Below are positions 581-61,843 of a stretch of 64,000 bases of DNA, one piece after another. The stretch covers positions 2,232,001-2,296,000 of the forward strand of contig NZ_CP019070.1 of assembly GCF_001956695.1 (NCBI RefSeq), written 5' to 3'. The notes beneath the pieces are model-generated. The model had not been told where the DNA came from. It saw only the letters and a list, made by a program, of their open reading frames with translations, and did not search any database. A program made the position numbers and the translations under genes. Numbering within the stretch: position 1 is the first letter of the stretch; every line of letters starts with the position of its first letter. This DNA is from Poseidonibacter parvus (GTDB lineage: Bacteria > Campylobacterota > Campylobacteria > Campylobacterales > Arcobacteraceae).

Positions 581-1084
581 TTACCTCTCCACTTCAATTA
601 AATTAAAAATACTCTTATCAAGAGAAAAAAAGTGTTGTGATATATTTTTATTTTCTTCACATACAAATTCAGATTCAAAAAAGCTTGGAGCTCTCCATTC
701 TAATTCAATGCCTGAACTGTTAGCTTTGTCTTCTACTTCAATCTGCCCTTTTGGTTTTTTACCTTTATCTTGTCCCCATTCTTGATTAGTATAAATTAAA
801 AGTTTTGTGATACTAGGATAATCTCTTTTTGCCTTATCTATTGTATCAAGTAAATCTTTTTTATGTTCAGAAATTCGTACTTCATAAAATTTTGCTTGCC
901 AACCTATTACTTCATTATCAACTTCAATAGGATTTGTTTCTACTGCAGACTGATTTTTATAACGAAAGATTCCATAAGGTTGTTTATATTCTTTACAAAA
1001 TAATAAGTAAGAAAACCATTCAAAGTTTTCTGTGCAATTGTCACTAAATTTAGCTTGAAATATTTTCCAGTTTGGTTTTATCAT
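581..1084 (-). CDS. PD-(D/E)xK-like nuclease domain protein, probably truncated
   Basis: This 167-residue protein resembles the N-terminal effector domain of large NTPase defence proteins (Avs/Cap4-like nucleases). Visible signatures are an N-terminal aromatic helix (ENFEWFSYLLF, residues 19-29), the GIFRY strand (38-42), an acidic ET pair (49-50) and the IGWQAKFY strand (60-67), whose QAK would be the (D/E/Q)xK element of a PD-(D/E)xK core. The segment LLIYTNQEWGQ and the Glu-Trp-Arg strand near 130 fit the same fold. It stops shortly after the nuclease domain, beside the IS3 copy, so a C-terminal NTPase and sensor part may have been lost. A free-standing nuclease is the alternative. The assignment rests on motif recognition only. 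Confidence 0.55.
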   Translation of the reverse strand: MIKPNWKIFQAKFSDNCTENFEWFSYLLFCKEYKQPYGIFRYKNQSAVETNPIEVDNEVIGWQAKFYEVRISEHKKDLLDTIDKAKRDYPSITKLLIYTNQEWGQDKGKKPKGQIEVEDKANSSGIELEWRAPSFFESEFVCEENKNISQHFFSLDKSIFNLIEVER

Positions 1085-1281: not shown

Positions 1282-3765
1282 CTATTCATTTATATAATAT
1301 TGAACTTCAAATTTTAATATTTCATTTTCATTATTTTCTTCCATTGCTTGAATAATATTACTATTTACCTTTAAATCATTCTCTAAATTAATATATTCAT
1401 TATATAGACCACTTTTAATTACTTTTGCTAGTTCAATGGAGAAACCTTCTTTTAAAAGTTTAATCATTTGAATATCACTCGTTCCATACTTTATTCTATC
1501 ATAGAAGCTACTTTCGATTAACTCGAGGTCATTTAATATTTCTACATATGGCATTAAATTGAAATCTATAAAATCTTGCTCTTCTTTAATCCTTAATATA
1601 GCTATGTTAACTTTTTGACTTGGAGATTTTCTTGATAAGTCAATGTACAATTCTCTAAAACCATCCTGATATGGAGATGTTATCTCACCCCATCTTCCAC
1701 CAACATAAATATATGAGTCTTGTTTAACATTCTCCCAGTACCATATAAATTTATTAATCATTTCATTATAGGAAGTCCCTGTTCCTCTCCATTCTAAAAA
1801 CATAGAGTAAAAAGCTTTTGCTTTATCATTCTCTATACGGCTAAAGTTGGCAGAAGATTCATCCTTTAATCTTATTCTAAATAAAAATATTTGAGCAATA
1901 AGGAATATTAACCTATCTGAGGTAGATATAGGTTCAATATTTTTTGAATTATTATAGTTTTCTTCTAATTGTCTTTCATTTTCAAATATATCAAAGTCAT
2001 GAATATTATTTTTAAAACATGCCTTTGCAATCTCGGTAGTTACAACTCTAAGGTTTTCAAGTTCACTCGTTCCTTCTTCTATATTTTCTTGAAATTCTTC
2101 TGCTTTTCTAATCTGATTTTCTTCTTCTGTAGTTAATTCATCGTCAAGATTTTTTTTAATTAATGGGTTATCTATTTCATCACTAATTATCTTATTATCT
2201 TTAACCCTTTCTTTTAAAAAATTTTCTATATTTGCTTGGTTATTAGAAAATTCACTTTTTATAATATAAACTTCAGGTTCTAGTAATTTTAAACTACCAT
2301 TTTCATTGTCGAAAACTTCACTAAATCTACAAACCCTTCCTACTAAGTTTTTAAATTGTGAACTATTTAAGTTTCCTTTACCTTTTTTTGTATCTAAAAG
2401 AAATATTTTTTCTGCAGGAATATTAACTCCTTGTAATAATGTTGAAGTAGTGACTACATATTTAATCTCTTCAATTTTTGAAAAAGCATTTTCTACATAT
2501 AAACGTACATTTTCAGGCATTCCTCCATGATGATAAACAACACCATTCCTTAATGTTTTGATTAAATCATAATCTACATGCAAAAATTCTTTCAATGCTT
2601 CTTGCACTTTTCTAATATTATCTGTAATTTCAATAGGATTTTGAATACTTTTAGAGAAGTTCTCTACGTACTTTGGTCTATTTATATATATAATATTTTT
2701 ACTAGCTGCAAATCTATTTATAAAATCAAATGGATTTTGAATCATTTGCAAAGTTTGAATATCAAAGAACTTATTAACAAACTGGTCATAAATTTTTAAT
2801 ATTTTTTCATTAGAAATAAAATCATATACAAAATATTTTTCTACTTTTATAAATTCATAAATTTTATCTACTAATAAATTATTATTATTAAAAACTTTTA
2901 GTTTTTTTGGTTCAACTAAAAAAGGAGTAAAATAATAGTACCTTGTTTCAGGATTTCTTTTTTTTAATATTTTTAAATTTTGAATTGTAAGAATTTCTCT
3001 TTCATCATTTTCAATTAAATTATGAGCTTCATCAATTAATGTCATATCAAATGTTAACTCAGGATGTTTTTGTAGTAATCTTAACAATCTTTCTTGAGTT
3101 AAAATAGCTATAAAGTTCTCTGAACTATCATTTAACATATCAGGATGAGTAATTACTTTATTACGACTTTCCCGAATAAGAGAATTTTTAATAATTCTTT
3201 TTCTTGTTTGAGATAAAAGTGATTTAGTAGGAACTAAGATACAGATATTTTTATCTAAATTATCTTCAACCTTTTGAATTATTAATTCTGATTTCCCATA
3301 TGAGGTAGGTGCTACAACAATAAAGTCATTTTCATTTTTAGAAAATTCAAAAAGTCTTTTTTGTCCAGCAGAAAAATAAATATTTTTATCATCTTGAGGA
3401 TGTTTAAAATCTTCTTTATATGAAGACATTAAAAGTCCATGAAAGCTTTCACTAAAACTTTCAGAATTTAAATATTTTTCCTCAATAAACTTCGAAACAG
3501 GAATATAATCTTTATTAATTGAAATATCATAAAGTGGTTTATAGTCATTAAACGTATTTGCATACATCAATATGATTCTGTAACCAAATTTTTCTAATTC
3601 ATTCTCTCCATAATTTAAAAATACTATAGCTGATTTTAATAATAAAAACTTTTCATTATCAGTTAAAGAATCATCTTTTTTAATAAGCTTTTTATATGCA
3701 CTAAAAAAGCTAGTTTCAGTAAGAGTTCTTATTAATTGTATCTTTTGTAATTTTATTTTACTCAT
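1282..3765 (-). CDS. hamB: Hachiman defence helicase HamB-like (SF2 DEAD/DEAH)
   Basis: This superfamily 2 helicase has about 827 residues. Motif I (VVAPTSYGKSELI, near residue 150), motif II (LIDEAHNL, near 243), the GVNIPAEK segment and motif VI (NLVGRVCRF, near 470) are all present, followed by a long C-terminal region without recognised motifs. ATG at 3765 is chosen because it overlaps the hamA stop by 8 bases (ATGAGTAA), typical of translational coupling; a longer in-frame start at 3789 exists. In Hachiman systems the helicase works with the DUF1837 nuclease HamA against phage, and the order hamA then hamB matches. The gene has no in-frame TGA, unlike the recombinase upstream, so it uses the standard code. 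Confidence 0.85.
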   Translation of the reverse strand: MSKIKLQKIQLIRTLTETSFFSAYKKLIKKDDSLTDNEKFLLLKSAIVFLNYGENELEKFGYRIILMYANTFNDYKPLYDISINKDYIPVSKFIEEKYLNSESFSESFHGLLMSSYKEDFKHPQDDKNIYFSAGQKRLFEFSKNENDFIVVAPTSYGKSELIIQKVEDNLDKNICILVPTKSLLSQTRKRIIKNSLIRESRNKVITHPDMLNDSSENFIAILTQERLLRLLQKHPELTFDMTLIDEAHNLIENDEREILTIQNLKILKKRNPETRYYYFTPFLVEPKKLKVFNNNNLLVDKIYEFIKVEKYFVYDFISNEKILKIYDQFVNKFFDIQTLQMIQNPFDFINRFAASKNIIYINRPKYVENFSKSIQNPIEITDNIRKVQEALKEFLHVDYDLIKTLRNGVVYHHGGMPENVRLYVENAFSKIEEIKYVVTTSTLLQGVNIPAEKIFLLDTKKGKGNLNSSQFKNLVGRVCRFSEVFDNENGSLKLLEPEVYIIKSEFSNNQANIENFLKERVKDNKIISDEIDNPLIKKNLDDELTTEEENQIRKAEEFQENIEEGTSELENLRVVTTEIAKACFKNNIHDFDIFENERQLEENYNNSKNIEPISTSDRLIFLIAQIFLFRIRLKDESSANFSRIENDKAKAFYSMFLEWRGTGTSYNEMINKFIWYWENVKQDSYIYVGGRWGEITSPYQDGFRELYIDLSRKSPSQKVNIAILRIKEEQDFIDFNLMPYVEILNDLELIESSFYDRIKYGTSDIQMIKLLKEGFSIELAKVIKSGLYNEYINLENDLKVNSNIIQAMEENNENEILKFEVQYYINE

Positions 3766-4573
3766 TGTTATTCTCGTTAAATTGGTCAATTAAAAAATCT
3801 TCTATTCTAGAATAAGTCTCTTTCTGTATTGAAAAGACAACTAATCCTACAAAAATATTTTCTGAATCTACACCTATTTTATAATTTTTTAGATTCTCAG
3901 GACAAATTCTAGTATCTAAATTTTTATATAAAACTGAACTTAGAATTACATTTCTTTCTAAATTTCTGTTTTCAGTATCGGGGTGATCTTCATCCAATAA
4001 TTCTTTAATATCTAATCTTCTTTCTGAATTGAAAATAGTTGAGTTTACATCTATTAAAACCGAATCCCATAAAGTTGCTCTATTCCCTAGAGAATGTGCT
4101 TCTATATCATCTTTTGCTTTTTTTAGAAGACTTATATTTTTTGTATCTATATTTTCAGTAGAATTAGTATCTCCTCCAGATTTGACTTCACAATACCAAA
4201 TAAGATCACTTTCATCAGTATAAACAACATCAAAACCTTTTCTTATACTATTCTCTTCTTTATTTTTCATTATAGAAATAGCTTCTAAATTAAGATAAGT
4301 AGGAAGTAATAAATGTGTTAACAATTCACCTATCATTCCTTTTTTTGTATCTGCTGTTTTAGTTTGATATCTTTCTAGAAATCTTTTTACTGTCGTATTA
4401 TAAGTAAATTGAGGTCTTTCTTCTGCATCAACTGAACCATGCCAAAGACTACTTAACATTTGTACTATTTTTTCTTTTAATTCATCACTAAATTCTTCTA
4501 CATAACATATGTAAACATTATCTTCTAAATTATGATGAAAACTAATACCTGAAATCATATTTATATCTTTCAT
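3758..4573 (-). CDS. hamA: Hachiman nuclease HamA-like (DUF1837)
   Basis: This 271-residue protein shows the DUF1837 pattern of a PD-(D/E)xK nuclease: Glu83 in KGMIGELL, Asp115 in RKGFDVVY and Glu129-Val-Lys131 in WYCEVKSG. In the family HamA is the effector of the Hachiman anti-phage pair, held and released by the HamB helicase. It overlaps hamB downstream by 8 bases. The start is the first ATG (4573). No strong Shine-Dalgarno is seen, but a TATAAT box lies about 31 bases upstream. The gene follows the TGA-recoded recombinase on the same strand with a 68-base gap. Assignment is by motif and partner; the residue triad and gene order agree. Confidence 0.85.
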   Translation of the reverse strand: MKDINMISGISFHHNLEDNVYICYVEEFSDELKEKIVQMLSSLWHGSVDAEERPQFTYNTTVKRFLERYQTKTADTKKGMIGELLTHLLLPTYLNLEAISIMKNKEENSIRKGFDVVYTDESDLIWYCEVKSGGDTNSTENIDTKNISLLKKAKDDIEAHSLGNRATLWDSVLIDVNSTIFNSERRLDIKELLDEDHPDTENRNLERNVILSSVLYKNLDTRICPENLKNYKIGVDSENIFVGLVVFSIQKETYSRIEDFLIDQFNENNNE

Positions 4574-4604: not shown

Positions 4605-4635
4605 ATTATAATATAATAATGTAATATCTTTGTAA
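4605..4635 (-). promoter_or_regulatory. likely promoter of hamA-hamB
   Basis: On the minus strand, TTACAA at 4635-4630 and TATAAT at 4610-4605 form a sigma70-like pair with a 19-base spacer, about 31 bases before the hamA start. The spacer is slightly long. The surrounding 68-base gap between hamA and the recombinase is nearly pure A/T, so chance matches are possible. Confidence 0.4.
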
Positions 4636-4641
4636 CATATT

Positions 4642-6192
4642 TTATAAATTTCAATATTTTATAAAATTACTAAATTTATCTAAATCTTCTAAATCTATTT
4701 TTGACAAATACTTTTTAAAAGTTCTAATATCAAACTCTTTAGGGATACCATATAACTTTTCTAACATTTTTGAGCTTTTTACTAGCGGAGTTTCGGCTAG
4801 TTGAAGCTCTTTTTTGTTGTTTACAGAAAGTTCTAACATTAATTTTCTTGTTATATATGCCTTTCATTCATTATTGGACTTAATATAGCTTGTATAGTAG
4901 CTTCCTGCTAGTTCTAACATTATTAGGGTCTTCCTTTCAAAATCACTATTATTGAGGTTCTCTTTTAGCTCTTCTATATCTTTTATTTCATTTTCTATTT
5001 GATTATTTTTAGATAAATATATTTCATGTTTTATCTTTTCATCAAGATGTAAGTCTAAAAGCTTATTTTGTCTATTCTTTAGATTTACTATTTTTTGTTT
5101 TAAATCATCTTTTTCAATTCAATAATTTCAATTTTCTTTTTTTATTAAATCTAAAATAATATTTTTATCTATATCTTTTAATTTTTTACTATCTACTTCA
5201 ATTTGTTTTATTTTATTTCAAATTTTTTGAAAAAGTAAATTTTCATTAATTGAGATTTTATGATTACTTCTGTATTGATGAGAATAATAGGTAATATCTT
5301 TCTTAATATAACTAGTTAAATTCATTCAAGAGGGGTCTTTAATAAATCATTTTAAATGATATTCTCACGGTTGTCTTTTTAGAATGGTTGTTTTCTTTTC
5401 ATGTACTCACTTTCAAATATCATTAGCTTGGTCATATATTAGTTTTGTAATTATAGGTTGATGACTTCAAGTTATATCTTTTCCTTTCCACTTAAAAACA
5501 CCATAATAAAACTTCATACCTACTAATCTTTGAATTCTACTTGAATCATAATTAAACTTGATTTTTTTAGAATACTTCTCTTTTAATACTCTAGCTATAG
5601 TCGTAAATGCTTTTCACTCAATCCTTAGGTTATATATCTCTTTTACTAATTTTGCTTCTTTCTTATCAAGTATAATATCTTTATGTCATTTTCTAATAGT
5701 AATATTTTTATATCAATATGGAGCTTTTCCTAAAAATCTTCAAGTGTTTCTTATGCATGATTCCATTTTATCTTTAGTATCTTTTCCCCTATCTTCATTA
5801 TCCATCTTAGATAATGATAAATCTAGTTGTAATAGGAACTTATCTCTTGAATTATCAGATTTATATTCTCTTGAAGTTCATAAAATTCAAGCTATTTGAT
5901 TTTTATCTAGTAAATCAATTATTCTTGATGTATCTAAATTGTTTCTAGAAAGTCTTTTTGGTTCATCTATTATTATATAATCTACTTTTCAAGATTTACA
6001 TATTTTTATCAATTCATTAAATCAGTTTCTCGTTCATTCTGTTTTAGCACTTCTGCTCTCTCAAATTTCTTTATATGTTTCAAGTCATTTTAAAGTAGCC
6101 ACTCTTCTACAATTTTCTAATTGATGTTCTAATGAATTAGCTTGTTTATCATCTCTATCTGTAGATTTTCTATAATAAATTATTGCTTTCAT
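4642..6192 (-). CDS. large serine recombinase readable only with TGA as glycine (code 25)
   Basis: Read from ATG at 6192 to TAA at 4642, this frame runs 516 codons with 22 TGA and no TAA or TAG. TGA falls at residues 36, 44, 53, 57, 68, 102, 105, 151, 160, 169, 193, 242, 260, 262, 276, 282, 289, 325, 355, 358, 443 and 514. With TGA as Gly the product is a resolvase/invertase-type recombinase: IYYRKSTDR with catalytic Ser10, KRLSRN (79-84), then a recombinase domain with GKAPYGYKN, where the second Gly is TGA. A C-terminal coiled-coil-like region follows. The zinc-ribbon cysteines usual near residue 285 are absent. Only seven GGN glycines and one TGG tryptophan occur. Gracilibacteria and Absconditabacteria use this code. 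In a standard-code host it would yield only short peptides. Confidence 0.9.
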
Positions 6193-6196
6193 ATCT

Positions 6197-6340
6197 TTAT
6201 GTATTAAAAAATAAATCAAAATTTTCTACTAGTCATTCCCAAAATTGCACTCTTAATTCAAATATTTCTTCTATTTTTTCATCTGAGTAGCTAGGATAAA
6301 GTTTTTTAAACTCATCCTTATGCTCTAGAAAATTTAGCAT
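6197..6340 (-). CDS. small protein upstream of the recombinase, also with TGA as glycine
   Basis: ATG at 6340 opens a 47-codon frame ending in TAA at 6197, four bases before the recombinase start. It contains one in-frame TGA (codon 37), right after TGG-GAA, giving FWEGLVENF when read as glycine. Because Trp is written TGG two codons earlier, TGA is unlikely to be Trp here. The product is acidic and probably helical (KLYPSYSDEKIEEIFELR). The tight spacing suggests an operon with the recombinase, perhaps a small accessory factor. No family is recognised. Shortness alone would make this weak; the shared code and position support it. Confidence 0.6.
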
Positions 6341-6377
6341 AAATATAATGAGTTAAAAAATATTAATTTTTTATTTT

Positions 6378-7631
6378 CTAAATTAATGTTTTTAAAGGAA
6401 TTGCCCAAAATTGGTATTCTTCAATTTTAAATGGTAGAACTTTATCCCCGCCATAAAATACTATACCTTTAAAATTTTTATTTTTAATTGTCTTAGCTAT
6501 TGCAAGAAGACCTTTAAAATGCTCACTTTTAATATTTGAACCTGATTTTATTTCTAAGGCTACTATATCTCCTGAACTTGATTCCAGTACAAAATCAACT
6601 TCTTTTTTTTGTTGATCTCTAAAGTGATATATTTCTACTTCTTCATTAGCAAATGATTGATGTTTAATAAGCTCACTATAAACAAAGGTTTCTACTAAAT
6701 TTCCTAAGTGTTCATTTTTACCTATCATAGATGATTCAACACTTGCATTAAGTAAAAAACTTGCAAGTCCTGAATCAATAAAATGGACTTTTGGACTTTT
6801 AGTTACCTTTTTAAGTGTATTATTTGAATAAGAAGGTACTAGTTTTATAATATATAATGCTTCAAGTAAACCTATATATTTTGCAACAGTTTTATCTGCA
6901 ATTCCAATACTCTTAGCAATATTTGAATAATTTACAAGTGAAGCTACTTGCCCTGCTAAAACTTTTAGAAGTTTTGATAAATGAGAGATAGTATCTACTT
7001 GTACATTTTCAATACTTGCTATATCTTTTGTTATTCTAGCTTTTATATAAAAATCATACCATGCTTTTTTGGCTTTTTGTGGTAAGTTGTAAACTTCAGG
7101 ATAACCACCATTAATTACAGCATTTATAAATTCTTCTTTACTTATACTCTCAAAGTTTATATCAAACTTATTAAAGTTATCACTAAATAACTTATCAATG
7201 ATATTTATATCTCTAGAATTAATTTCACTATATGATAAAGGAAATAGATTAAAACTAACCATTCTTCCAGCTAATGATTCTTTTATTTTTGAATTTTTAA
7301 ACATATCAGAAGAACCAGTAAGTAAAAACATACCTTTTCTATTTTCTTCATCAACACTCATTTTTATTGGAGGTATAATATCAGGTATCATTTGAACTTC
7401 ATCAATAGCAACATTTTCATCTTTTGAAATATAATCTATAAAACCTTTAGGGTCAGAACTTGCTGTATCAAAAATTGTAGCTTCATCAAAAGTATAATAC
7501 TTCATATTTTTATTCTTCGCTATTTTCTTTTGCAAAGTTGTTTTACCTGATTGTCTAGGGCCATTAATAGCTACTATTCTAAAAGATTCTAACATTTCTA
7601 CTATTGTGGATTCTAATTTTCTATGTACCAT
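6378..7631 (-). CDS. ATPase with DUF4143 domain (AAA_14-type)
   Basis: This 417-residue ATP-binding protein has a Walker A motif NGPRQSGKTT (23-32), Walker B VAIDEVQ (74-80) and a sensor-like LLTGSSD. A winged-helix-like middle follows, then a C-terminal PD-(D/E)xK-like domain with KKEVDFVLE and VALEIKSGS. Such proteins are common in bacterial and archaeal accessory regions; their role is unsettled, and ties to defence or toxin-antitoxin function have been proposed. The gene ends in TAG and has no in-frame TGA. Four exactly phased repeats lie just upstream (7644-7731) and may be its operator. Confidence 0.85.
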   Translation of the reverse strand: MVHRKLESTIVEMLESFRIVAINGPRQSGKTTLQKKIAKNKNMKYYTFDEATIFDTASSDPKGFIDYISKDENVAIDEVQMIPDIIPPIKMSVDEENRKGMFLLTGSSDMFKNSKIKESLAGRMVSFNLFPLSYSEINSRDINIIDKLFSDNFNKFDINFESISKEEFINAVINGGYPEVYNLPQKAKKAWYDFYIKARITKDIASIENVQVDTISHLSKLLKVLAGQVASLVNYSNIAKSIGIADKTVAKYIGLLEALYIIKLVPSYSNNTLKKVTKSPKVHFIDSGLASFLLNASVESSMIGKNEHLGNLVETFVYSELIKHQSFANEEVEIYHFRDQQKKEVDFVLESSSGDIVALEIKSGSNIKSEHFKGLLAIAKTIKNKNFKGIVFYGGDKVLPFKIEEYQFWAIPLKTLI

Positions 7632-7744: not shown

Positions 7745-8842
7745 CTAATTGTATAATCCATTAACAAACTCTTTTCCACTATCTGGCATTAATTTTGCAT
7801 ATCTTAAAGTCATTTCAATTGTACGGTGATTCATTAATTTTTGTACAGTAAAAATAGGTGTTCCATTAATAGCTAGATGAGAAGCAAAAGTATGTCTTAA
7901 AGTATGAATAACTACTCTATTTTTTGCATCTTTACTATCTAATCCTTTATTAAAATTCTTATCAAGAATTATTTTTAATTTTCTTTGTATTGTTGTAGTT
8001 GGATATTTATTTTCTAAACCTCCAATTACATAATCATTAATCCCTAATCCTCTTATATGTTTTTTTAATAATTGTTTAAAATCATCACTTATAAAACCTC
8101 TGTAATTACTTTTGTTTTTAAAATCTTTTAAGACAACAGTATTATTCATAATATCAATATTCTTTTTTTGAATATTGAGTACAGTCTCTAATCTTCCACC
8201 AGTATTTAATGCTAAGTTAACAAATAAAGATAAAACTACATCATGATTTACTTCTTCTAGTAAAATTTGAATTTCATCAGTATTTAAAAACCTTTCTCTA
8301 TCATTATCCATATTTAGTTTTCTTAAACCAAAGCAAGGATTATTAAGAGTCATTTCTTTCTCTTTTATTGCATAGTTAATAATTGCATTTAATAAAATTA
8401 CAATTCCATTAACTGTATTATTTGCTTTACCTTCTTTAAGTATTTTATTTCTAAACTCAGTAATATCACTCTTCTTTAATAACTTAATATTTGTATTACC
8501 AAAAATAGGTTCTATATGAGTTGTATATTTAGATTTTTGTCTTTTGTTTTGAGTTACATCTAAATCTTTATCATTAAAATACAATTCAGATAAATAGTTA
8601 ATTGTGATTATTTGTTCTTTTTTGTGTTTTAAAGGTAGTTCTTCACCTAGACGAATTTTATTAATTAACTCATCTCTTTTTTGTTTACAAAATGGTTCAG
8701 TTATACCTTTTGATTTGTCACCAACTTTAATTCTAACAGATTTTCCGTATTCATTTTTATATCTAATGTAGTAAGAAATATCTTTATTTTTTTTATGATA
8801 TAATTGTATTCCATCATATCTTTTTGAGTTAATATATCCCAT
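7745..8842 (-). CDS. tyrosine-type site-specific integrase
   Basis: This 365-residue phage-type integrase has an N-terminal arm and SAM-like core-binding domain (about 60-165), then a catalytic domain. Visible catalytic residues are Arg in NTGGRLETVL, the HTLRHTFASHL box (His and Arg), the later His in LMNHRTIEMTLRY and the nucleophile Tyr in that same motif. It integrates or excises a genomic island by recombining att sites. The start at 8842 is ATG. No intact tRNA gene is seen beside it; a GC-rich patch with an att-like repeat lies at 8994-9029. Confidence 0.92.
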   Translation of the reverse strand: MGYINSKRYDGIQLYHKKNKDISYYIRYKNEYGKSVRIKVGDKSKGITEPFCKQKRDELINKIRLGEELPLKHKKEQIITINYLSELYFNDKDLDVTQNKRQKSKYTTHIEPIFGNTNIKLLKKSDITEFRNKILKEGKANNTVNGIVILLNAIINYAIKEKEMTLNNPCFGLRKLNMDNDRERFLNTDEIQILLEEVNHDVVLSLFVNLALNTGGRLETVLNIQKKNIDIMNNTVVLKDFKNKSNYRGFISDDFKQLLKKHIRGLGINDYVIGGLENKYPTTTIQRKLKIILDKNFNKGLDSKDAKNRVVIHTLRHTFASHLAINGTPIFTVQKLMNHRTIEMTLRYAKLMPDSGKEFVNGLYN

Positions 8843-11520: not shown

Positions 11521-12111
11521 TTATTCTAAATACTCTTCTATTTTCTTTACAAAATCTTTCATAATTCCGCTTATTTTCCTGTATGTGTGTTTTCTTAAGC
11601 CTGAACTATTTGCAAATTCGATTATACTAACACCTTCATTTTCAACTGTTTGTAAAGCTCTTGTATGTGGTATTACGAAAAAATCAATCTCATCTTGTGT
11701 ATTTTCTTTTATGAAACTTATTGATTCTTCAACATCTTTATCATTTAAAACTGCATTCACTACAAATAACACAGGTACATTTTGAGTTTTTACTCTGTTA
11801 TAACTTTTTAGTGTAGTTCCAAGAGAATTAATAGTTGGGTTAAAGGGAATGATAATCAAATCAGCACTTTTAGATATCTCATCTAATCTTAAATCATCAA
11901 AACCACCAAAATCATAAATAACATCACCCTCTTTTATTTCAGGTACTTTTTCATTTAGTTCAACTTTATAAACAATATCATCACCTAATGTATCATTTAA
12001 CATTCCATATGGATCTAATTCGATTATAGTTGTATCAAAATAAAGTGCTAATTGAGTTGCAAGCATTGACTTTCCAACTCCACCTTTTTGATTATATATA
12101 ATTATTTGCAT
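11521..12111 (-). CDS. ParA-family partition ATPase
   Basis: This 196-residue P-loop ATPase starts with a deviant Walker A, YNQKGGVGKSMLATQLA (7-23). The KGGVGKS with a signature Lys is typical of ParA/MinD. It has a DPYG switch and DFGGFDD (Walker B region near 70). It would segregate a plasmid, island or chromosomal locus together with a DNA-binding partner, probably the next gene. It is shorter than chromosomal ParA/Soj. An inverted-repeat operator lies directly before the start. No replication initiator is present in the window, so its cargo is unknown. Confidence 0.85.
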   Translation of the reverse strand: MQIIIYNQKGGVGKSMLATQLALYFDTTIIELDPYGMLNDTLGDDIVYKVELNEKVPEIKEGDVIYDFGGFDDLRLDEISKSADLIIIPFNPTINSLGTTLKSYNRVKTQNVPVLFVVNAVLNDKDVEESISFIKENTQDEIDFFVIPHTRALQTVENEGVSIIEFANSSGLRKHTYRKISGIMKDFVKKIEEYLE

Positions 12112-12736: not shown

Positions 12737-13069
12737 ATGAAACTTTTAAAAAAGGATACAATATTGGAACCACAATATGAAAAAATCATAGTATTAGTTA
12801 TAGTACTTTTAGCAGGTTTTGTAACTTGGAAAATGGTAAAAGATTTTTATATTACAAAAATGCATAAAGTAATTGCACACTTAATAGCAGTTGCAACTTC
12901 ATCGTTTATGTTATTATCAACGATGTTTTTATTTATGCCAAAGAACTATCAAAGAGGAACAGGTCCAGAAGTAGAACTAAGCTTCATGTCTGTTATTACT
13001 GTATTCGTGATGGTTGCAGTACTTTATGTATTTTTCAAATACGCACCTCAAAGCACAAAAAAGAAATAG
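12737..13069 (+). CDS. small membrane protein of unknown function
   Basis: This 110-residue protein has three hydrophobic segments (about 17-34, 46-67 and 82-100) and a lysine-rich cytosolic tail. It starts at ATG 12737, 28 bases after the NUDIX stop, with a small GTGCTT/AAGCAC hairpin between. It may be co-transcribed with the NUDIX gene. No family is recognised. Confidence 0.6.
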   Translation: MKLLKKDTILEPQYEKIIVLVIVLLAGFVTWKMVKDFYITKMHKVIAHLIAVATSSFMLLSTMFLFMPKNYQRGTGPEVELSFMSVITVFVMVAVLYVFFKYAPQSTKKK

Positions 13070-58820: not shown

Positions 58821-61378
58821 TACATATAGTCTAAGTTTCTATCTTCTGATTCTAAGTTTTTCTCTCTTGATTCTAAAATAGTTTGTGTATCAGATTCATT
58901 TGTAAATTGATTTTTAGAATCTTCTTGATTATTTGAATTATTATTATCTTGTTCGCTTGAATTAAAATCTAAATTAAATACTGTATTTTCATCAAATGTT
59001 TTATTTAAAGCACTTCTTAAACTATTTTGTCCATCAACAAAAGCATCTAAAGTTGCAGAGTTTGAAATATTTAAACTAATATTTATTCCATTATCTTTAT
59101 CACTTTTCATAACAATTGCAATATTACCAAGTGCAGCTGGATTTAAATTTATTCTTAATGCAGTAACTGGTGGCTTGTAGTTTTCATACATTCTTCTTGC
59201 AATATCTGACATCATTGTTGACATTTGTTGTCTTGCTGCAATAATTCTTGTTTCAATATTTTGAGCTAAGGTAGCACTTACATTTACTGAAACCTCATTA
59301 TCAGTATTTAGAGTATCATTGTTCAAAATAGCCTTACTAGCTTCTACTGAACTTGTTACTAAATTAGTCATTTCATTGTGTCTTGCATTATTATTTAATG
59401 CTAATTTATCTAAGCTATTTCTTCTATCTAATAAATTAAGACTATTATTGTTAATTTCATTTGTTTTAGTTTCTACCTTGATATCTTTAACATTTAATTC
59501 TAATTTATTGGCATTAACTTCTACTTCATCAATTGTTGTTGCATCTTTTACTGCATTTATTGCTTGAGATTTATTTGATAAAGCACTATTATTTATACTA
59601 TTTTGTTGAGAGCTTAAATATATATTGCTTATTACGCTTTTTGAGTTAAATTCTTTGCTTGAAGTATCATTGTTTTTTAATATTGTTGTTTCATTTTCAT
59701 CTAATGTAGTTTGATTCTTAATATTATTAGATTTTTCAATTAAACTGTCCATTAATGATTTTGGTTCATTTTTCTGTTTTAAAGGTAGTGATTCTATTTC
59801 ATCTTTTGTAATGTTTATTTTCTCATTTTTAAGAGCATTACTACTTAATTCATTTAAATCTTTTGCTAATTTAGAGTTTTTATTCTCTACTTGCTCTTCA
59901 CTAATAGAATTAGTATCTTTACTAGTTGTAACATTCTCAGACAACTTACTTCTATTTATTTCTTTGTCTGTATTATTTTGAATAGCTTGTAATTTTTCTG
60001 ATACTTCATTTTTTACTGCGTTTGTGTCTTTATTTAAAAGTACAGATTGGTCAATATTTTCATCAATTAAATTAATAGTTTTTACTGTTTGAGTTGTTTC
60101 AATTTTTTCTGATATTTCTTTTTCTATACTACTATTTTTAGGCAAATCACTATTTAAACTAGAATCTATTTTTGTTTCAGTTTTAGTGTCTTTTACTTCT
60201 TTATTCTTATTATCTAAATCAATTACTTTTTCTACAGATTTTTCACTTATTTCATTTGTTTTTACTATTTCTGTAGTCTTAGCATTTTCTGATATTTCTT
60301 TTTCTACACTATTATTTTTAGGCAAATCACTATTTAAGCTAGAATCTATTTTTGATTCAATTTTATTATCTATTTTTGATTCAATTTTATTATCTATTTT
60401 TATTTCAGTTTTAGTGTCTTTTACTTCTTTATTCTTAGTATCTAAATCAATTACTTTTTCTACAGTTTTCTCTACAGATTTTTCACTTATTTCATTTGTT
60501 TTTACTATTTCTGTAGTTTTAGCATTTTCTGATATTTCTTTTTCTACACTATTATTTTGTGTGTTCTTTTTTGCTTCTAAGACTAATCTATCAAGTAAAG
60601 ATGAACTATTACTACTTTTAGAAATATTTTTATCTAAAGGTTGATTATCAGACTTTTTTTCATCTTCTTTTGAAGATGTTAAATTAGAATCTAATTTTTT
60701 AGTATCTAAATCAATTACTTTTTCTACATTTTTTTCTACAGATTTTTCACTTATTTCATTTGTTTTTACTATTTCTGTAGTCTTAGCATTTTCTGATATT
60801 TCTTTTTCTACACTATTATTTTTAGGCAAATCACTATTTAAGCTAGAATCTATTTTTGATTCAATTTTATTATCTATTTTTATTTCAGTTTTAGTGTCTT
60901 TTACTTCTTTATTCTTAGTATCTAAATCAATTACTTTTTCTACAGTTTTCTCTACAGATTTTTCACTTATTTCATTTGTTTTTACTATTTCTGTAGTTTT
61001 AGCATTTTCTGATATTTCTTTTTCTACACTATTATTTTGTGTGTTCTTTTTTGCTTCTAAGACTAATCTATCAAGTAAAGATGAACTATTACTACTTTTA
61101 GAAATATTTTTATCTAAAGGTTGATTATCAGACTTTTTTTCATCTTCTTTTGAAGATGTTAAATTAGAATCTAATTTTTTAGTATCAGCAAAAGTTTTTT
61201 TGTTTTCAGTAAGTTTTTCATTTGAATCAATATTTTTATTATCAAGCTTTGGATTATTTGCTAATAATTTATCAAATAAAGAAGCTTCTTGTTTTACTTC
61301 TTTATTTCCACCAGATGTACTTTTTAAATTTTTAGCATCATTTGTATTAGTTAATAATATATCTACTTGCTTTGTCAT
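58820..61378 (-). CDS. fliK: flagellar hook-length control protein FliK-like, with internal repeats
   Basis: This 852-residue protein has a long, charged, low-complexity N-terminal two-thirds and a C-terminal Flg_hook domain (about 690-815) with LRINLNPAALGNIAIVMKSD. FliK measures hook length and triggers the FlhB switch. Blocks like SVEKEISENAKTTEIV recur at least four times, and a longer block (SNLTSSKEDEKKSDNQ to LEAKKNTQ) recurs twice, owing to a 480-bp duplication. Length is well above the usual 400-600. In a ruler protein such repeats could change hook length. Confidence 0.88.
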   Translation of the reverse strand: MTKQVDILLTNTNDAKNLKSTSGGNKEVKQEASLFDKLLANNPKLDNKNIDSNEKLTENKKTFADTKKLDSNLTSSKEDEKKSDNQPLDKNISKSSNSSSLLDRLVLEAKKNTQNNSVEKEISENAKTTEIVKTNEISEKSVEKTVEKVIDLDTKNKEVKDTKTEIKIDNKIESKIDSSLNSDLPKNNSVEKEISENAKTTEIVKTNEISEKSVEKNVEKVIDLDTKKLDSNLTSSKEDEKKSDNQPLDKNISKSSNSSSLLDRLVLEAKKNTQNNSVEKEISENAKTTEIVKTNEISEKSVEKTVEKVIDLDTKNKEVKDTKTEIKIDNKIESKIDNKIESKIDSSLNSDLPKNNSVEKEISENAKTTEIVKTNEISEKSVEKVIDLDNKNKEVKDTKTETKIDSSLNSDLPKNSSIEKEISEKIETTQTVKTINLIDENIDQSVLLNKDTNAVKNEVSEKLQAIQNNTDKEINRSKLSENVTTSKDTNSISEEQVENKNSKLAKDLNELSSNALKNEKINITKDEIESLPLKQKNEPKSLMDSLIEKSNNIKNQTTLDENETTILKNNDTSSKEFNSKSVISNIYLSSQQNSINNSALSNKSQAINAVKDATTIDEVEVNANKLELNVKDIKVETKTNEINNNSLNLLDRRNSLDKLALNNNARHNEMTNLVTSSVEASKAILNNDTLNTDNEVSVNVSATLAQNIETRIIAARQQMSTMMSDIARRMYENYKPPVTALRINLNPAALGNIAIVMKSDKDNGINISLNISNSATLDAFVDGQNSLRSALNKTFDENTVFNLDFNSSEQDNNNSNNQEDSKNQFTNESDTQTILESREKNLESEDRNLDYM
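60368..61186. repeat. 480-bp-period tandem duplication inside fliK
   Basis: Bases 60368-60706 and 60848-61186 are identical by eye over about 339 bases, offset by exactly 480. Partly diverged further copies of the inner unit extend to about 60090. The period is a multiple of three, so the frame is kept. Such repeats are prone to expansion, contraction or assembly collapse. Confidence 0.9.
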
Positions 61379-61381
61379 AAT

Positions 61382-61843
61382 CTATACCTCTAAGATACCT
61401 AATGTTTTAGAATCTATATTTTTATGAGTATTAAAAGCTGCAACATTAGCCTCATAAGATCTCATAGCCTCAATTAAATCTACCATTTCAACAACAGGAT
61501 TAATATCTGGATAAGCTACATATCCTTCTTCATTTGCATCAGGATGATTTGGTTCAAATCTCAATACTGGACTTGCTTGTGAATCTAGTATTGATTTAAC
61601 TCCAACTCCACGTAATTCATTTGCTGAATTTCTATTATTGTTAGTTTCAATATCATTATTATTTGTTTTGTTTGTTTGATTGACTAAAACATCTTCGAAA
61701 ACAACTTGTTGTTTTTTATAAGGACCACCTTCATCAGTGTGCGTTGTTTTAGCATTTGCAATATTTGCACTTACAACATTTATTCGTGTTCTTTGTGCAC
61801 TCATTCCTGAAGTAGATACGTTGTAACCATCAAAAAAACCCAT
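61382..61843 (-). CDS. flgC: flagellar proximal rod protein FlgC
   Basis: This 153-residue rod protein has the N-terminal motif YNVSTSGMSAQRTRINVVSA (8-27), NIANAKTT, and the C-terminal YPDINPVVEMVDLIEAMRSY with EANVAAFN. It lies between fliE and fliK in the usual order (flgB is not in the window). RBS and start are consistent, at ATG 61843. Confidence 0.96.
   Translation of the reverse strand: MGFFDGYNVSTSGMSAQRTRINVVSANIANAKTTHTDEGGPYKKQQVVFEDVLVNQTNKTNNNDIETNNNRNSANELRGVGVKSILDSQASPVLRFEPNHPDANEEGYVAYPDINPVVEMVDLIEAMRSYEANVAAFNTHKNIDSKTLGILEV

Follow-up and report, generated by a model that had tools for sequence, protein, structure and literature searches.

The recombinase gene and its neighbours

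The window analysed here is a 64,000-nucleotide stretch from Poseidonibacter parvus (G000), whose genome is a single contig of 2.87 Mb. On the minus strand, at positions 4642–6192, lies the gene of a large serine recombinase that is readable only if TGA stands for glycine. Translation with table 25 gives 516 codons with 22 in-frame TGA, no internal TAA or TAG and one final TAA (4642–4644). Seven glycines are specified by GGN, TGG occurs once, and arginine is never specified by CGN. The plus strand of the same stretch has stops throughout. The first-pass annotation had placed a 516-codon frame with 22 TGA and no TAA or TAG at these coordinates, which are right, with the strand left unstated; its description of the frame as intact also holds, as table 25 gives 516 amino acids up to the TAA.

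The product is a large serine recombinase, with an N-terminal resolvase domain (PF00239, 8.8e-20) that carries the catalytic serine, a Recombinase domain (PF07508, 2.1e-12) and a coiled coil. The catalytic Ser10 is part of the motif YRKS, kept in 12 relatives, and the PHROG match is to an integrase (1.1e-50). An AlphaFold2 model built from 11 relatives has a mean pLDDT of 76 and a pTM of 0.39, and the packing of the domains is therefore unsure. In Foldseek the model shows a full-length match to solved large serine integrases (9dxd, 9iu2 and 9tep; best E 2.1e-18), and the integrases matched along the whole length are those of SP-beta, Bxb1 and phiC31. Helices 340–383 and 389–411 of the model form the coiled coil. 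The zinc-ribbon region has no Pfam zinc-ribbon match and no cysteine at residues 270–320, so that the earlier wording of a "former zinc-ribbon site" is plausible; strands 293–304 of the model could be a ribbon fold without zinc.

The next most TGA-rich frame of the window, 59181–61457 on the plus strand (758 codons, 9 TGA), probably exists only as a shadow of opposite-strand genes. Among the 966 frames of at least 200 codons in 1.26 Mb scanned of the 2.87 Mb genome, no other has more than 12 TGA, and the four that rank next outside the window each shadow a standard open reading frame.

Directly downstream of the insert is a Hachiman defence system in the standard code, consisting of HamA (3758–4573, minus strand; Pfam HamA) and the HamB helicase (1282–3789, minus strand; PADLOC HamB, 9.5e-73). 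A 167-amino acid open reading frame without a Pfam match is found downstream of HamB (581–1084, minus strand). On the upstream side the insert directly adjoins a standard-code AAA_14/DUF4143 ATPase gene (6378–7631, minus strand), and the tyrosine integrase of the island is at 7745–8842 (minus strand). Relatives of this integrase, with DNA identities of 80% and 67%, adjoin TGA-coded recombinases in two other Arcobacteraceae genomes, G087 and G068, and a further one, G067, also has a tyrosine integrase there. Immediately upstream of the recombinase gene is a helper-like open reading frame of 47 codons (MLNFLEHKDEFKKLYPSYSD...; 6197–6340, minus strand) with one TGA. It is conserved in 4/4 Campylobacterota copies of this recombinase family (family 1), and its in-frame TGA occupies one common column of their DNA alignment. 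The statement that neighbouring genes lack in-frame TGA thus stands except for this small frame, which is part of the same insert.

The Hachiman block is common to genome G083 (83% identity), with homology ending at 4616. Several other Arcobacteraceae have the DUF4143 block, homologous as far as 6354–6379, and host cassette copies match each other over 4657 to 6371. From these limits the insert extends approximately over 4617–6375 and holds the small open reading frame and the recombinase only. The window copy is without cargo, and homologous tails downstream of the gene are not present in the window. An empty site with both flanks joined was not found, the flanks occurring separately in other genomes, nor was a TGGT core found at the outer borders of the host insert.

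Glycine at TGA and decoding in the host

At the 21 testable TGA columns in an alignment of 26 related recombinases, ordinary GGN codons make up 15.3% of the cells, as against 1.1% elsewhere, a 14-fold difference. As a benchmark, the frequency at the recombinase's own GGN columns is 21.5%. Judged from this alignment, the TGA sites of the recombinase are the glycine sites of the family, which bears out the original reading of TGA as glycine.

TGA is a stop codon in P. parvus, as had been proposed: 53 of the 631 open reading frames of at least 250 amino acids in the 1.26 Mb scan end in it. The suggestion of a glycine tRNA reading UGA did not survive, since none of the 65 tRNAs of the genome has a UCA anticodon, and decoding of UGA by the host was rejected on this ground. 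The host is thus unable to read the recombinase gene. Elsewhere in this genome (G000:C1:692994–694854) a block of four tRNAs is repeated in tandem with a period of 447 bases, in four full copies and a partial fifth.

Recurrence in other genomes and phylogeny

Intact TGA-coded recombinases are present in at least six standard-code genomes, namely four Arcobacteraceae (two of them complete), a Campylobacterales metagenome-assembled genome (MAG) and Motiliproteus, and these belong to two recombinase families. The first-pass annotation had advised a search for the insert in related Arcobacter-type genomes; among 104 Arcobacteraceae genomes, intact homologues were found in G087 (24 TGA, 62%) and in G068 (23 TGA, 60%), the latter a single contig of 3.27 Mb. 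A scan of GTDB contigs adds the LacPavin Campylobacterales MAG (15 TGA) and Motiliproteus sp. MSK22-1 (12 TGA); the remaining relatives are from Candidatus Gracilibacteria, including the nearest ones, with 15–20 TGA. The fourth Arcobacteraceae case, G067, was reached via the shared DUF4143 gene. Its serine recombinase (L115:4229–5791, minus strand; 20 TGA) belongs to the second, different family and lies beside the same pair of DUF4143 and tyrosine integrase genes. The nearest relatives of this protein in the Gracilibacteria class are encoded by code-25 genes and are 51–67% identical.

The PF07508 domain occurs at nine places in the 104 Arcobacteraceae genomes, and the four that hold the full domain are exactly the TGA-coded genes. 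Islands with a tyrosine integrase hold 4/4 of the full-length large serine recombinases of these genomes. In a draw of 347 Campylobacterota genomes, which does not list G068 and G087, P. parvus is the sole match at E 1e-60; MSK22-1 is the sole match in the order of Motiliproteus (294 genomes). A phage origin was considered and rejected, with no close relative in IMG/VR by single protein or profile. Among the matches listed, nothing exceeds about 28% identity in INPHARED or 26% in PLSDB.

The recombinase gene is almost certainly of Gracilibacteria origin, as first proposed. Two properties, TGA at conserved glycine sites and nearest relatives in code-25 genomes, are both found, and on these sequence comparisons the assignment appears near certain. 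In a tree of 27 recombinases the host copies are not monophyletic. Those of the three Arcobacteraceae fall together with moderate support (89/84), that of the MAG is paired with one from Gracilibacteria (98/96), and that of Motiliproteus stands apart. Host state requires three changes on the tree, at least two of them forced by well supported branches, and this scatter indicates that hosts were entered more than once.

The recombination site and tRNA fusion

A candidate att site is situated inside the recombinase gene (4642–4750, minus strand). It consists of a TGGT core (4747–4750) and a tail of about 105 nucleotides which also encodes the C-terminus of the recombinase. Downstream of the recombinases in G087 and G068, homologous tails recur twice each, with similarity to the recombinase's own tail confined to the part that begins at TGGT. 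That the homology starts at TGGT suggests site-specific insertion of cassettes, and recombination at this core would be the work of the TGA-coded recombinase. A frame that resembles the recombinase C-terminus is retained in the downstream tails; with each insertion the enzyme would then acquire a different, though related, end.

In Gracilibacteria, an antisense tRNA gene is fused at the 3′ end of the recombinase gene in 18/21 family 1 copies, whereas this is seen in 0/5 host copies. The fused tRNAs are mostly Glu-CTC and Cys-GCA, and the two genes meet at TGGT, which is complementary to the ACCA end. Thus the Gracilibacteria copies display the junction at a tRNA 3′ end that marks tRNA-targeting integrative elements, and the host copies do not. 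The five family 1 host copies keep the full tail of about 35 codons, with the tRNA absent there; integration into tRNA genes in hosts was rejected, as there is no tRNA at host junctions. In the G087 cassettes, TTCGAACC stands ahead of the hairpin terminators (L109 reverse complement, 11945–11998 and 12910–13010). This sequence resembles the T-arm of tRNA and could be left over from tRNA target sites.

Cassette arrays and cargo

In G087 and G068 further copies of the TGGT-tail site downstream delimit integron-like cassettes, in which there are additional TGA-coded genes. The G087 array has a gene of 441 amino acids (21 TGA) and a frame of 258 codons (13 TGA), followed by a standard-code GajA gene. 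G068 has two related cassettes and then PDC-S46. Accordingly, with the Hachiman genes of P. parvus, each of the three Arcobacteraceae family 1 cases has a defence gene after the array. In Motiliproteus an open reading frame with 8 TGA comes after the recombinase, and in the LacPavin MAG there are TGA-free PIN-domain and partner genes on the other strand and then a DNA methylase gene in which 5 of 22 glycines are TGA; no second site was recognised in either. A 14.8-kb Campylobacterales contig (L014), on which relaxase and TraG-like genes are present, has an N6/N4 DNA methylase gene (7936–8718, plus strand) with mixed glycine codons, 5 TGA and 17 GGN.

The two G068 cassettes combine both codes. 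One strand has a TGA-free NAGPA-like gene (29 and 24 GGN; GC 0.37 and 0.32) and the other a TGA-coded gene for a membrane protein (13 and 9 TGA; GC 0.18 and 0.15), so that the summed glycine codons are 53 GGN and 0 TGA versus 22 TGA and 5 GGN. The cassettes are colinear across their intergenic stretch, with 86 matching sites where shuffles give at most 70, which indicates that the pairing of the two genes predates the split of the cassettes. Both genes look purified, with dN/dS values between the cassettes of 0.09 for the NAGPA-like gene, where dS is saturated, and 0.29 for the membrane protein gene. The latter must have been selected in code-25 cells. Had the NAGPA-like gene diverged solely there, TGA codons should have arisen in it; the probability of no gain is 0.08, 0.02 and less than 0.003 for 0.38, 0.6 and 1.0 substitutions per site, respectively. 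This is suggestive, though no proof, that the gene avoided TGA.

A relative of the membrane protein, with 13 TGA, is found in one Gracilibacteria genome, outside any recognised array. By eye only, the G068 protein looks DedA-like. NAGPA was rejected as an Arcobacteraceae gene, being present in G068 alone of the 104 genomes, with one weak plasmid match. The TGA-coded cargo of G087, G068 and Motiliproteus has no convincing Pfam, PHROG or PADLOC match, and no toxin family was recognised in it.

Eleven TGA-coded genes were counted in six hosts, with 4377 codons and no TAA or TAG. Neutral drift is thereby limited to a mean of about 0.002–0.003 substitutions per site; the copies are all very young or else have been kept.

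Relation to known systems

The TGA-coded recombinase shares with the large serine integrases (SP-beta, Bxb1, phiC31) the Resolvase and Recombinase domains, the coiled coil and the full-length structural match, and its att sites are probably directional. It differs in having no zinc-ligand cysteines, in a predicted att site inside the gene, at which recombination would alter the C-terminus, and in the use of code 25 in standard-code hosts. As in integrons, cassettes come after a recombinase gene, and a repeated recombination site closes each of them. However, the enzyme is a serine and not a tyrosine recombinase of the IntI type, the site overlaps the recombinase gene, and some cassettes contain two codes. 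The array thus works like a cassette array, yet it is not an integron.

The Ccr proteins of SCCmec are serine recombinases whose site is located within the 3′ part of a gene. CcrB and CcrA are among the NCBIfam matches of the recombinase described here, but at 54 of 900 bits, far under the family cut-offs, and the tRNA target and code 25 are further differences.

Phages are reported to link code-25 CPR bacteria and ordinary bacteria, and those that may work in both mostly avoid TGA (PMC10746230). Both cases involve mobile elements that may touch both codes; here the genes are TGA-dense and reside in the host chromosome. A literature search, mostly of abstracts and with preprints and most subscription journals outside its range, returned no report of code-25 genes in host chromosomes or of a Gracilibacteria serine recombinase.

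A proposed life cycle and its alternatives

We propose, with a probability of roughly 0.55, that these cassettes are code-locked mobile elements, silent in ordinary bacteria and active when the DNA is inside a Gracilibacterium. The recombinase would be the enzyme of a Gracilibacteria mobile element family with TGA as glycine, carried silently in ordinary-code chromosomes, and it would recombine at the TGGT core within its own 3′ end. In Gracilibacteria a tRNA gene would receive the element at its 3′ (CCA) end, with replacement of the C-terminus of the enzyme; in hosts the full tail would be retained, and tail-bearing cassettes would come to lie in a row after the serine recombinase, as in an integron. 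The code would be the lock: the recombinase is not made by the host, but could be made by a Gracilibacterium that takes up host DNA. As the host cannot make the enzyme, cassettes would move only in Gracilibacteria. Host chromosomes would then be a reservoir, with passage back through uptake of host DNA.

The code, the origin, the recurrence, the site inside the gene, the tRNA fusion and the arrays are all read from compared sequences; from these we infer recombination at TGGT by this enzyme, the direction and route of transfer, and a life cycle in which the host stage is regular and under selection. More tentatively, the cassettes may represent a class of element that alternates between two cell kinds with different codes, with genes for each, the code difference as a switch that holds it in place in one kind and permits recombination in the other, and an integron-like array run by a serine recombinase.

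The main rival is recent transfer to a dead end, which is quite possible, if short of probable. Gracilibacteria living on hosts or eating them would release DNA that is occasionally integrated, and the genes would be unreadable passengers with no role in the host and destined to be lost. Uniformly very young copies would be expected to have intact frames, host copies do branch among Gracilibacteria copies, a host function of the cassettes is not seen, and the window copy is without cargo. However, such transfer does not lead one to expect that every full-length large serine recombinase among 104 Arcobacteraceae genomes is TGA-coded and in a tyrosine-integrase island, nor TGA-free genes with ordinary glycine codons within the arrays, in a pairing so old that synonymous change has had time to saturate. 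The first-pass annotation had favoured recent transfer; it was right about the origin but misses the several hosts, the two families, the site inside the gene that bounds arrays and the two-code cassettes.

Perhaps, though this is improbable, the cassette is a weapon that does the host itself no harm and is expressed only inside a DNA-importing Gracilibacterium, where the recombinase attacks tRNA genes. The defence genes that directly adjoin the Arcobacteraceae family 1 cassettes and the TGA-coded cargo without assigned function would fit. But the island could be no more than a hot spot, the cargo contains no recognised toxin family, and integration does not appear lethal, since Gracilibacteria keep many integrated copies and the acceptor tRNA is still predicted.

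Assembly or binning artefacts are very improbable. Some of the host genomes are MAGs (G087 and LacPavin), but the genomes of P. parvus and G068 each consist of one contig, and MSK22-1 carries no MAG label. Standard-code genes flank similar cassettes in comparable islands, and the recurrence of such cassettes in other genomes, one also complete, makes a chimera at this locus unlikely. That the host reads UGA as glycine, or reads through it, and uses the recombinase itself would account for the intact frame but is scarcely credible, given the tRNA complement and the large open reading frames that end in TGA, and it is implausible that a single gene would be read through 22 times.

Gene transfer is usually taken to be blocked by a difference in genetic code, yet here wrong-code recombinase cassettes recur intact beside defence genes in standard-code chromosomes. 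Recurrence in at least five other ordinary-code bacteria points to mobile DNA passing between cells of two kinds whose codes differ. TGA-coded genes may have been overlooked because standard annotation fragments them. The cassettes name likely partners of uncultured Gracilibacteria, Arcobacteraceae and Motiliproteus, and would serve as a DNA marker for Gracilibacteria contacts. On the proposed code-locked reading, a code difference as an expression lock for mobile DNA becomes testable, and a cassette array with its recombination site within a serine recombinase gene would be a new architecture.

Elements between recombinase copies in Gracilibacteria

Two Gracilibacteria loci (L150 in G420 and L151 in G419) have elements of about 8–10 kb between recombinase copies. 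After one recombinase comes what seems to be the tail of a following element, as tandem insertion would produce. By eye, the elements carry cytosine methylase, kinase-like and restriction-like genes. They also have a conserved gene in common (NKIVHHFGLDHLEIFGTFK...).
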